The notes under the pieces were generated by a model that worked only from the letters and a program-made list of their open reading frames with translations, made no database searches and was not told the origin of the DNA. Shown one piece after another: positions 7,608 through 15,601 of a DNA stretch of 64,000 nucleotides (its first letter is position 1; each line of letters begins with the position of its first letter). The position numbers and the translations under genes are program-made. Origin of the DNA: Victivallis vadensis (lineage in GTDB: Bacteria; Verrucomicrobiota; Lentisphaeria; Victivallales; Victivallaceae); assembly GCF_003096415.1 (NCBI RefSeq), contig NZ_QEKH01000009.1, positions 62,001 through 126,000 on the forward strand, in the 5' to 3' direction.

Positions 7608-8372
7608 ATGAGAAGCAATCATTTCACCCTTATCGAGCTGCTCGTCGTGATCGCAATCATTGCGGTCCTGGCCGGAATCCTGCTGCCGTCGCTCGGCATG
7701 GCGCGGGAAAAGGCGCGTGACACCATCTGCAAGACCCAGCTGCGCCAGCTGCATCAGGCGATGACCCTCTACTCCCGCGACAACGACGGCTGGGCGTGCC
7801 CGGCGCGGTTGAACGACAGTTCCGCCGGCGACGTGGTGGACTGGACGCACGCCCTCTACGCCTACGCCCCCTCGAAAGCACTCTACTTCTGCCCGTCGGA
7901 AAAGGAGAGCGGGCCGGAGGACTGGGTGGATGAAAAACTGACCGGCAACCGTTCGGTCAGCTACGGGCTGAATTACTTCGCCTACGGCCTCGGCCCCTCC
8001 ACCGAAAAGAGCAACCTGCGGCAGCCGGCCAAGATGAGCGATATCACCGACGCGGCCCGGCTCGGCGGCGGCAAGGGGATCGTGATGTTCTCCGATTCCG
8101 CGCCGAAAACCGAAGCCGATCCCGCCCAGTACGGCTATATGCTCAGCCCGTATGAGACAGCGCTGAACCATCGTGTCTACACCGGTCCGACTTCCACGAT
8201 CGCCCTGTTCAAGCCGCGCCACAAGGAGGCGGTGAACAACGTCTACCACGACGGGCACGTCGACCAGGCGCGGGCCACGGCGCTGATCGATCCCGAACAG
8301 AAATATGCGATCCCCTTTTCGATTCGCGGCTACTGGTACGTTTCGGTAAGTCCGCTTGAATTGGCGAAATAA
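7608..8372 (+). CDS. prepilin-type N-terminal methylation domain protein with H-X9-DG motif
   Basis: The 254-residue protein starts [12 protein letters not shown], giving a very short leader, a conserved Glu at +5 and a hydrophobic helix. The residue before Phe is His, not Gly. Near the C-terminus it has [14 protein letters not shown], an exact H-X9-DG motif. Family members are secreted or surface pseudopilin-like proteins greatly expanded in Planctomycetota, Verrucomicrobiota and Lentisphaerota. It lies 9 nt after the MBL-fold gene and 17 nt before a second member of the family that it resembles in the middle region ([15 protein letters not shown] versus [15 protein letters not shown]), indicating tandem duplication. 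Confidence 0.85.
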
Positions 8373-8389: not shown

Positions 8390-9151
8390 ATGAGACAACG
8401 CAATTTTACTTTAGTTGAGCTTCTGGTCGTAGTCGGAATCATCGCGCTTCTGGTGGCGATGCTGCTGCCGGCGCTCGCGAAAGCCGAAGCCAAAGGCAAG
8501 GACATCACCTGCCGCAACAACCTGAAACAACAGGGGCTGGCGTTCCACATGTACGTGTCGGACAACGACGACTGGGCCGCACCGGTACGGGTGAACGAAG
8601 GCGGAGGCTCCGCATCAAACGTCCGCGACTGGTCCCACCTGATGCAGGAGGCCTACCTGCCGCAGAAAGAACTGTTCTTCTGCCCGATGGAGAGCCGCTG
8701 CGAATGGACCGGATCCGGCTCCACCGGCAACCGCAGCATCGGTTACGGGCTGAACTACTATCTGTGGGGCCTGACGACCGACCGTTCCAGCAGCAACCTG
8801 CGCCACCCGGTGAAGCTCAGCGTCGCATCGCGGTACATCCGCGGCAACGGCGGCATCGTGCTGGGTGATTCGGCGGTGATGAAACGCTGGAACGGCGCTT
8901 ACGGCGGCGGCAAAGCCCAGTACGGCTACATGATCGACACCTACAACCACAAGAAAGCGATCATCCGCAAGGACGGCCGCGACATGGAGGGCGGCGCGAC
9001 CTACGCCCTCGTCGATCCCCGCCACGACAACGGTGTGAACTATCTGCTCCACGACGGGCATGTGGTCCGCAAAAGCGTGAGCCAGATCCGCAGCGAAGCT
9101 GACTTCGCGCTGCCTTATTCGATCAAAGGCCAGTTCCATACCGAATTCTGA
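8390..9151 (+). CDS. prepilin-type N-terminal methylation domain protein with H-X9-DG motif
   Basis: The 253-residue paralogue of the preceding gene begins [12 protein letters not shown], with Asn before the mature Phe and Glu at +5. The C-terminal [14 protein letters not shown] is an exact H-X9-DG motif. It shares the SYGLNY/GYGLNY block, the CPSE/CPME cysteine position and the QYGYM segment with its neighbour. It is followed after 64 nt by a secreted SGNH hydrolase. The two pseudopilins may form heteromeric assemblies on a type II/IV secretion-like platform encoded elsewhere, which is inference. Confidence 0.85.
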
Positions 9152-9215
9152 GTTGACGATTCCGGCGGCAATGGTTATATTACACAAGCCGGAATCCATT
9201 CAAAAGGGAATCATC

Positions 9216-10370
9216 ATGCTGAAATCACTGCTCCGTTTCGCCGCGCTGTTCTGCTGCGCGGGAGTATTCGCGACGGAATCCACACTCGAACTCGATCCGA
9301 ATATGAAGCTCAAACCGGCCGACGCCGACGGTCTGAAGTACCTGCTCCCGGCGGAGAAACCGCTGCGGCTGACCGGCTTTTGCTGGTACGGTCAGGATCA
9401 CGTCTACCGGCGGCTGCCGGTCAGGCCGGACGGCAAGTTGAGCCGGGGCGTCGAAAATCTCGCATGGAACACCGCCGGCGGACAGGTCGCGTTCCGCTCC
9501 GACACCGGCCGGATCGTGCTGAAGGTCGAAATGCGTTCCAACAACGTGATGTACCACATGGCCCAGACCGGGAGCGCCGGTTTCGACCTCTATGCCGGAG
9601 CGCCCGGCGAACAGCGTTTCTTCGGCGTGACCCGCTTTCCGTCCGGAGCAAAGGAATATACCGCCCAGCTCTTCAAAGGCGAACGCAGAATGCGTGACTT
9701 CACGATCAACTTCCCGCTCTATGCGGGCGTGAAACAGGTATTCATCGGCGTCGACGCCGACGCGAAAGTGGAAGCGCCCCCCGCATGGAAGGACGACCGC
9801 CCGATCGTGATCTACGGCACTTCGATCACCCAGGGCGGCTGCGCGTCCCGGCCCGGCATGGCTTATACGAACCTGCTGAGCCGCCGCCTGAACCGCCCGG
9901 TGATAAACCTCGGCTTCTCCGGCAACGGCAAGGGCGAGCCGGAAGTCGCCGCCGAAATCGCGAAGATCAAAGATCCGGCGCTGATCGTGCTCGACTACGA
10001 GGCGAACGTGCACCGGGCCGACTTGATGCAAAAAACCTTGGCGCCCTTCATCGGCATCCTGCGCAAATCCCATCCCACCGTGCCGATCCTGCTCCTGACC
10101 AAAGTGCGCTACGCCGCCGAAGGCCGCGACCTGAAGCGGGGCAACGACCTGCCGCGCCCCGGCCATGTACAGGCAGTGCAGAAAGTCGAACGCGACACCT
10201 TCGACGCATTGAGCAGGAACGACCCGAATCTCCATTTCCACTCCGGCGACGACCTGCTCGGCCCGGATTTCGACGAATGCTCGGTGGACGGAGTCCATCC
10301 GACCGACCTCGGCTTCTACCGTATGGCCGAAAAACTCGAACCGGTCATCCGCAGCATCCTGCCCCGCTAG
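9216..10370 (+). CDS. secreted SGNH/GDSL hydrolase with N-terminal GxDLY domain
   Basis: Start 9216 is supported by AAAGGGA upstream and by the signal peptide MLKSLLRFAALFCCAGVFA. The 384-residue product carries the GFDLY motif of the GxDLY domain (Pfam family of that name) in its first half. An SGNH esterase domain follows: block I YGTSITQGG with the nucleophile Ser, block II GFSGNG, and block V DGVHPTDLG with the catalytic Asp and His. Enzymes of this architecture are carbohydrate O-acyl esterases or uncharacterised lipase-like hydrolases. Together with the MBL-fold protein it makes the enzymatic part of this locus. The substrate is unknown. A hairpin-rich repeat starts 9 nt after its stop codon. 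Confidence 0.82.
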   Translation: MLKSLLRFAALFCCAGVFATESTLELDPNMKLKPADADGLKYLLPAEKPLRLTGFCWYGQDHVYRRLPVRPDGKLSRGVENLAWNTAGGQVAFRSDTGRIVLKVEMRSNNVMYHMAQTGSAGFDLYAGAPGEQRFFGVTRFPSGAKEYTAQLFKGERRMRDFTINFPLYAGVKQVFIGVDADAKVEAPPAWKDDRPIVIYGTSITQGGCASRPGMAYTNLLSRRLNRPVINLGFSGNGKGEPEVAAEIAKIKDPALIVLDYEANVHRADLMQKTLAPFIGILRKSHPTVPILLLTKVRYAAEGRDLKRGNDLPRPGHVQAVQKVERDTFDALSRNDPNLHFHSGDDLLGPDFDECSVDGVHPTDLGFYRMAEKLEPVIRSILPR

Positions 10371-10379
10371 AATGGGGAT

Positions 10380-10727
10380 GCCTCCGGCGGCCGGGGGCGC
10401 TTCGCCCCCCGGTCCCCCAGACCGGCAAGGTGCCGGCGCCGGGTACGGTTTCGAGCTTTTTGCTGCGCAAAAATCTCAAAACCGGAGGTAGTATCTATCA
10501 GTTTATTTGCTCTATCGACCATTTACCGCACCGGCACGTTGCCGGTCGGGGCCGAACGTCGGCTTCGGTAACCGGACGAAGTGCCCTTGCCACCGGAGGT
10601 AATTTGTGCGCTACAGCGCCCAGCTACCGGAGCCTGATTGAAAATCAGGCCGCGTAGTGCACAAGGTCTGTAAACCGCAGGGTTGCAGACCCGCCTGCCG
10701 CGAAAGCGGCAGGGTTCCCCTACACTC
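10380..10727 (+). repeat. structured intergenic repeat, copy E1 of a tandem pair
   Basis: This is the first of two tandem copies with a 348-bp period, filling most of the 885-bp gap between the SGNH and GntR genes. I see a series of hairpins: 10391-10412 (CCGGGGGCG-CTT-CGCCCCCCGG), 10422-10436 (CCGGCA-AGG-TGCCGG), a long one containing AGCTTTTTGC/GCAAAAATCT, 10531-10545 (CCGGCA-CGT-TGCCGG), a stem pairing 10604-10614 with 10654-10664 around the hairpin 10632-10650, and a GCCTGCCGC-GAAA-GCGGCAGG hairpin. No convincing protein is encoded. The element starts 9 nt downstream of the SGNH stop codon. Confidence 0.85.
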
Positions 10728-11079
10728 GCCTCCGGCGGCCGGGGGCGCTTCGCCCCCCCGGTCCCCCAGACCGGCAAGGTGCCGGCGCCGGGTACGGTTT
10801 CGAGCTTTTTGCTGCGCAAAAATCTCAAAACCGGAGGTAGTATCTATCAGTTTATTTGCTCTATCGGCCATTTACCGCATCGGCACGTTGCCGGTCGGGG
10901 CCGAACGTCGGCTTCGGTAACCGGACGAAGTGCCTTGCCCGCCGGAGGCAACCCGCACGCGCCAGCGCCCAACACCCGGAGCCGGATCGCAGATCCGGCC
11001 GCGGCGTGTGCGAGGTCTGGAGGCCAAAGACCGTAAGACCCGCCTGCCGCGAAAGCGGCAGGCTTCCCCCACGCGAATC
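10728..11079 (+). repeat. structured intergenic repeat, copy E2 of a tandem pair
   Basis: This second copy is nearly identical to E1 over its first 215 bp, then diverged in sequence but not in fold. The stem 10954-10963 with 11003-11012 and the inner hairpin 10981-10999 replace the E1 stems by compensatory changes. The GCCTGCCGC-GAAA-GCGGCAGGC hairpin is retained. The start of a third, truncated copy (GCCTCCGCCG) follows at 11080. The remaining stretch to 11200 holds a CTTGGAGTGCGGAG motif at 11122 shared with other intergenic sites. Confidence 0.85.
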
Positions 11080-14881: not shown

Positions 14882-15601
14882 ATGAAAAAAAGCAATTTCA
14901 CCCTCATTGAACTGCTCATCGTCATCGCGATCATCGCCATTCTCGCCGCCATGCTGCTGCCCGCCCTGAACCAGGCGCGCAAAAAAGCGAAGATCATGTC
15001 CTGCGCCAACAACCTGAAAACCCTGGGAACTTATACGCAGCTTTACTGCGGTGATTACGCCGACATGCTGCCGCCGCTGTGCAACCAGAAAAACAGTGAA
15101 CTCTGGACCTCCGTACTTCACAACTACATCACGCCCGGCGCCGACTGGAGAATCAGCACAACCAATATCTTCGTGACAACCGCCGGGGCGGAAGACGCCG
15201 GAACTTTCTCCAGAGGGCGCAGGAGTTTCTTCGTCTGCCCAATCGCCCGGGAAATCGGCCGGACCGTGACTCCGACCTACGGGCGCAATGCGCTGTTTCC
15301 CTTCAACCCGGCTTCACCGACCTCCACGCAGTGGTTCGGCTCCGCCAAACTGAGCCGATTCAAACGCCCGGCCGGAACCGTACTCTACGGCGACACCTAT
15401 CCGGACAGCGCCGGAAGCCTGATGCAGGGCAGTCATTACCTGAAAGCCTCCATGCTGAACGGCGTCTGCGGCAACCTCCACAACGACGGCGACCGACTCA
15501 ATATCTGCTGGGCCGACGGCCACGTCAGCAGTACAGCCGCCGCCGCGCTGAAAGGGGAACATGAAGCCGGAGAGCCGGCGAGTGTCTGGACCTGTTACTG
15601 A
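14882..15601 (+). CDS. prepilin-type N-terminal methylation domain protein (pseudopilin-like)
   Basis: The 239-residue protein begins [14 protein letters not shown], with Asn before the mature Phe and Glu at +5. A GAAAGGAAA box lies ahead of the ATG. The C-terminal [11 protein letters not shown] matches the DGH part of the family signature, with an 11-residue gap to the preceding His. It is the last gene of the operon with the GntR-type regulator and the glycosidase. Confidence 0.84.

Follow-up and report, generated by a model that had tools for sequence, protein, structure and literature searches.

Downstream of an SGNH/GDSL hydrolase gene of Victivallis vadensis, two tandem copies of a structured non-coding element lie within the 64,000-nucleotide stretch of DNA analyzed here (the window). 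They differ by changes that fall on both sides of their stems, which an earlier note had read as selection for an RNA or single-stranded DNA structure. Is this locus a conserved RNA, or can a DNA repeat acquire compensated changes by other means?

The positions given in the earlier note proved exact when read off the sequence (Table 1). Copy 1 starts 9 nt 3' of the hydrolase stop codon, and the copies are identical at 209/216 sites over the first 215 positions and at 93/127 in the remainder. In the P6 stem of copy 1, TGTGCGCTAC (10605-10614) pairs with GTAGTGCACA (10654-10663); in copy 2, CGCACGCGCC (10954-10963) pairs with GGCGTGTGCG (11003-11012). Both sides are changed in five of the ten pairs, a G-T being retained at pair 6, and the enclosed hairpin passes from GCCTGATT/AATCAGGC to GCCGGATC/GATCCGGC with two further double changes, seven in total. 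A GAAA-capped hairpin is indeed found in both copies. The P6/H7 alleles of copy 2 are private, occurring in no other of 85 copies of the repeat; pair 6 is nevertheless G-T in both window copies, while it is G-C in nearly all others.

Table 1. Features of the repeat locus (positions refer to the window).
Feature	Position	Strand	Evidence
TAG stop codon of the upstream SGNH/GDSL hydrolase gene (ORF 9153-10370)	10368..10370	+	Pfam GDSL/SGNH
Repeat copy 1	10380..10720	+	sequence and genome search
Mini-hairpin GCC-TCC-GGC, 5' end of copy 1	10380..10388	+	
Hairpin H1, CCGGGGGCG-CTT-CGCCCCCCGG, copy 1	10391..10412	+	
Hairpin H2, CCGGCA-AGG-TGCCGG, copy 1; alternative allele elsewhere CCGGGT-AGC-ACCCGG	10422..10436	+	
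Hairpin H3, A/T-rich; 3-nt loop in both orientations among copies (TGC/GCA, TAC/GTA)	10447..10483	+	
Hairpin H4, ACCGGCA-CGT-TGCCGGT, copy 1; alternative allele ACCGGGT-GCT-ACCCGGT in about half of the copies	10530..10546	+	
Hairpin CCGAACGTCGGCTTCGG, H5 slot of both window copies; elsewhere also in the mirrored slot	10552..10568	+	
Mini-hairpin ACC-GGA-GGT; alleles in other copies GTC..GAC, GCC..GGC	10592..10600	+	
P6 stem-loop, copy 1; arms 10604-10614 and 10654-10664, encloses H7 (10632-10650)	10604..10664	+	covariation alignments
Hairpin H8, GGTCT..AGACC, copy 1	10665..10691	+	covariation alignments
Hairpin H9, GAAA loop, copy 1	10693..10713	+	
Repeat copy 2	10728..11070	+	sequence and genome search
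P6 stem-loop, copy 2; arms 10954-10963 and 11003-11012, encloses H7 (10981-10999)	10954..11012	+	
Hairpin H8, copy 2	11014..11040	+	
Hairpin H9, GAAA loop, copy 2	11042..11063	+	

The unit of about 330-350 bp is a chain of about ten local hairpins, which follow each other from 5' to 3' as the mini-hairpin GCC-TCC-GGC, H1, H2, H3, a variable stretch, H4, H5, the mini-hairpin ACC-GGA-GGT, P6 enclosing H7, H8, H9 and a terminal TTCCCC. The variable stretch (about 45 nt) differs in all 36 aligned copies. P6 has two 5' segments (GCTAC twice) able to compete for one 3' arm, and copies differ in which of the two fits. Folded as RNA, both copies beat all 100 dinucleotide shuffles (z -9.26 for copy 1 and -7.22 for copy 2); copy 1 folded as single-stranded DNA gives z -8.31. 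Two long-range pairings were rejected: the P1 stem of the minimum-energy fold, whose 5' strand GCCTCCGGC is constant although its supposed partner occurs as GTC..GAC, ACC..GGT and GCC..GGC, so that local hairpins fit better, and a pairing of H2 with H4, whose alleles lack significant linkage (p 0.07). In line with the earlier note, which recognized no known RNA in the fold, the element belongs to no Rfam family: the window gave no match above the curated score, and the further matches were all weak, among them an opposite-strand match of Acido-Lenti-1 RNA (RF01687) over H8-H9 (18.6 bits, E 0.13), which with a gathering score of 37 bits does not make the element a member.

The pairing was followed through the copies found elsewhere. 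In a plain MAFFT alignment of 13 copies, 94.4% of cells pair and double changes occur in 12 of the 28 pairs. An alignment of 85 copies, fitted to the structure, gives 94.2% pairing cells for the 28-pair fold and 168 double-change cells, where shuffles average 41; its pairing beats every shuffle on all measures except the number of further pair types, and every slid control fails. The stems pair more than chance allows, and the proposal of a real non-coding fold kept through compensated changes is borne out by the fold z-scores and by these comparisons with shuffles. G+C-rich intergenic DNA does make stable folds, from which fortuitous pairing might arise, but the z-scores, the excess of double changes and the failure of the slid controls already refute composition as the explanation, and we give it practically no credence.

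Pairing beyond chance could stem from a functional 3'-UTR RNA element whose fold is selected in each mRNA, for example to protect the 3' end, to direct termination or anti-termination or to modulate ribosome release, in which case the double changes are true compensatory evolution. The covariation in the 28-pair fold is in its favor, as are the nearly invariant GGTCT/AGACC helix and the conserved GCT/AGC bits in two species; the type of mismatch, however, is not. Transition in a G-C pair yields G-U when the C changes and A-C when the G changes; selection on a transcript tolerates G-U and removes A-C, whereas change at the DNA level is blind to the difference. The stems hold 56 G-U against 59 A-C overall (p 0.85 against equality; 3' module 40:46, 5' half 16:13), counts which, the copies being related and not independent, read recent mutation. 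The lack of a G-U excess fits strand-symmetric DNA change and not transcript selection. Four predicted tRNAs, used as a positive control, gave seven G-U and no A-C, the prediction program itself rewarding G-U. Covariation is not supported here as proof of selection for an RNA. Since pairing persists in two species and in the private allele of copy 2, some long-term constraint on pairing is likely. The interpretation of the earlier note is partly supported: fold and covariation are confirmed, the RNA part is not supported, given the G-U count and the reshuffling of whole-hairpin alleles, and a single-stranded DNA or cruciform role may still apply.

Differences between copies amount to a few whole-hairpin alleles per slot: two for H4 (Table 1), three main stems for H5 and four main forms of the mini-hairpin. 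The slots are near linkage equilibrium, most slot pairs showing nearly all combinations with permutation p values of 0.2-1 (H4xH5, 6/6 combinations, p 0.32; H3xH4, 4/4, p 0.52; H5xH8, 12/12, p 0.65). Only H5 and the mini-hairpin beside it are clearly linked (p 0.002); linkage is borderline for H2xH3 (0.04), H1xH4 (0.05), H2xH8 (0.06) and H2xH4 (0.07), in 21 tests without correction. Internal deletions and extra hairpins also occur. Alleles that change as blocks and reassort speak against compensatory evolution of a selected transcript. Template switching between inverted repeats yields arm homogenization and spacer inversion (PMC8604942); by this published signature the H3 loop, which at least 6 of 35 copies carry inverted, is counted as a sign of template switching. 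Besides the H5 slot, the CCGAACGTCGGCTTCGG hairpin occupies, in reverse, a mirrored place in the H1-H2 region of further copies; its sites in the genome include C9:72552, C9:72901, C13:5587, C16:10591 and C21:35930, and a nearly identical stretch is present in another genus (locus L037, genome G016).

The earlier note had described the element as a tandem one; it is instead a dispersed repeat with more than 50 copies in the genome. A search of the organism's own genome (G000; 5.2 Mb, 99.5% complete) returned 81 matches, some 30 of which approach full length and often lie in tandem, for instance at a 332-bp pitch in contig 32. With a covariance model of the 3' module (P6, H7, H8), 56 copies are detected in G000 and 24 in a congeneric sister species (G005); both counts are minima, the number scored per genome having been capped. 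The G005 copies preserve the order P6-H7-H8-H9-TTCCCC with different sequence. Allowing for weak matches that may escape it, the model finds no copy in the other 196 genomes of the class. Exact-pattern scans of genome contigs, from which near-identical records were possibly left out, and of viral contigs gave no match, and an open-access literature search retrieved no report of such a repeat in this phylum. That nearly all relatives do without the element argues against an RNA function in 3' UTRs.

At one locus of G000 (L055, C19:97000-100500) a small lipoprotein-like gene has been duplicated together with the repeat, giving the order element-gene-element-gene. A related element with G+C-rich hairpins lies inside prepilin-like genes (L032, L039, L045 and L035; species G002 and G003, both congeneric, and G035 from a different genus), which have a native start, FTLIELLVV, the element in open frame (339, 453 or 396 bp) and then a second 16-residue motif. 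This second motif looks element-borne, and prepilin peptidase could cut off the insert along with the leader. Prepilin-like genes with FTLIELLVV-type N-termini also lie near the repeat in the window (7608-8372, 8390-9151 and 14882-15601), where they carry no inserted element.

A co-oriented gene ends just upstream of the repeat in 62 of 67 array-level loci, after correction of shadow ORFs by hand. Because convergent sites always have a co-oriented upstream gene, co-directional pairs form the informative subset, and among these the orientation is sense in 32 cases and antisense in 5 (p 7e-6). Divergent gene pairs have no copy between them. The gap from stop codon to element, read by hand for copies with an identifiable 5' end, has a median of 11 nt (range 1-42) and is at most 15 nt in 30/41. 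This strict position after stop codons, together with the sense bias, is what a 3'-UTR RNA would lead one to expect; the genes upstream, which share no function (sulfatase, AcrB-type transporter, phosphoglycerate kinase, NadA and histidinol dehydrogenase are among them), speak against it. Two neighboring SGNH-like genes, judged by eye, each have an element behind them (L011, C10:5528-8855 in G000), like the SGNH gene of the window.

In sister species the asd orthologs stop at the same site, and in at least six of these species an intrinsic terminator occupies the place that the element has in G000, which favors a 3'-UTR RNA. The element, however, ends in TTCCCC, a poor U-tract that does not qualify as an intrinsic terminator, and such terminators are not generally lacking in G000. 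At pgk the element directly follows an intrinsic terminator. A terminator-like site occurs within 250 nt after the last copy at 3 of 55 G000 loci, and such sites are scored, by the program alone, inside 14 of the 55 elements. A genome-wide swap of intrinsic terminators for the element found no support: counts based on crude gene calls were 5/40 gene ends in G000 and ranged from 1/16 to 6/18 in relatives. Taking both sides together, we regard an RNA selected in the 3' UTR as unlikely.

The restriction to two species, the occurrence of copies both dispersed and in tandem, the short direct repeats at array ends (e.g., GACTTTGCCTCCGG) and the pgk copy placed directly 3' of a terminator would all suit a non-autonomous transposable element, inserted at gene 3' ends by a host recombinase that recognizes single-stranded DNA hairpins. 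No transposase or insertion signature emerged: the Y1 transposase (RAYT, PF01797) has no match in G000 and two in G005, and the reverse transcriptase (sole match in G000 at C20:94502-95083) and the IS110 fragment, one each in G000, do not match the distribution of the repeat, so that all three were rejected as movers. Around the arrays there is no clear target-site duplication, and no fully alignable empty site was established. Judged as a MITE, the element has ends (GGGGA..TTCCCC) that may hint at terminal inverted repeats, and flanks without clear duplication. Transposition of this kind, which overlaps with the explanation we prefer, is possible but rather doubtful.

Resting on the observed family, its position behind stop codons, the pairing, the block alleles and their reassortment, we propose that the element is probably a lineage-specific, high-copy, modular palindromic DNA repeat of REP/BIME type. 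Copies would have spread through some mobile or duplicative process, and their hairpins would be swapped, and would stay palindromic, through template switching at replication and short-patch ectopic recombination, a route to compensated changes that bypasses G-U intermediates. Less certainly, the upstream mRNA may run through the copies and end with them as its 3' UTR, where, by analogy with REPs, they might hold back 3' exonucleases or ribosomes ending translation. The position at stop codons could reflect either targeting or tolerance. A bolder version, which we consider improbable, is that hairpin exchange is active, about 20-nt palindromic cassettes being swapped slot by slot among more than 50 copies, fast enough for hairpins about 20 bp apart to reach linkage equilibrium, perhaps by means of a recombinase or polymerase that works on folded single-stranded DNA, with the combinatorial chains marking gene 3' ends.

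The REP/BIME-type repeat that we propose can be set beside known systems. REPs are found 3' of genes, some of them no more than 15 nt from the stop codon, and are reported to stall ribosomes there (PMC12306157); their families include sub-families that differ in complementary residues of the stem, and they form tandem clusters (PMC3733652). The present repeat shares these traits, consisting of many dispersed intergenic palindromes 3' of genes and near stop codons, in tandem clusters and with alternative complementary stems. Its unit, however, spans about 330 bp and about ten hairpins, some ten times the 20-40 bp of a REP, and G000 lacks the RAYT transposase that accompanies REP/RAYT systems. 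The GTAG or CGTC tag that REPs have at the foot of one hairpin is missing, GTAG here sitting inside P6; G-T pairing, often seen in GTAG REPs (PMC3733652), contrasts with the absence of a G-U excess here, and hairpin alleles here reassort by slot. With BIMEs the repeat shares the general idea, units combined in varied order and number, as seen in its nearly unlinked slots, internal deletions and extra hairpins, but not the E. coli motifs. The repeat works like a BIME and is, by the tests made, no member of a REP/RAYT family. bcr1 of the Bacillus cereus group (about 150-167 bp) is confined to one species group, looks mobile and has a conserved secondary structure (PMC2267715); the present element resembles it, compared by description, in these respects and differs in being twice as long, modular and tied to stop codons.

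The element is probably a new relative, of unusual size, of the palindromic repeats known from bacteria and not a new riboswitch. Its case suggests that covariation, on which claims of a functional RNA usually rest, can arise in a dispersed palindromic DNA repeat through whole-hairpin exchange; comparing G-U with A-C pairs and testing linkage between hairpins help to tell RNA selection from such exchange. With dozens of natural copies, the family offers a system in which the origin of mosaics of the REP/BIME type and their link with stop codons could be measured directly.
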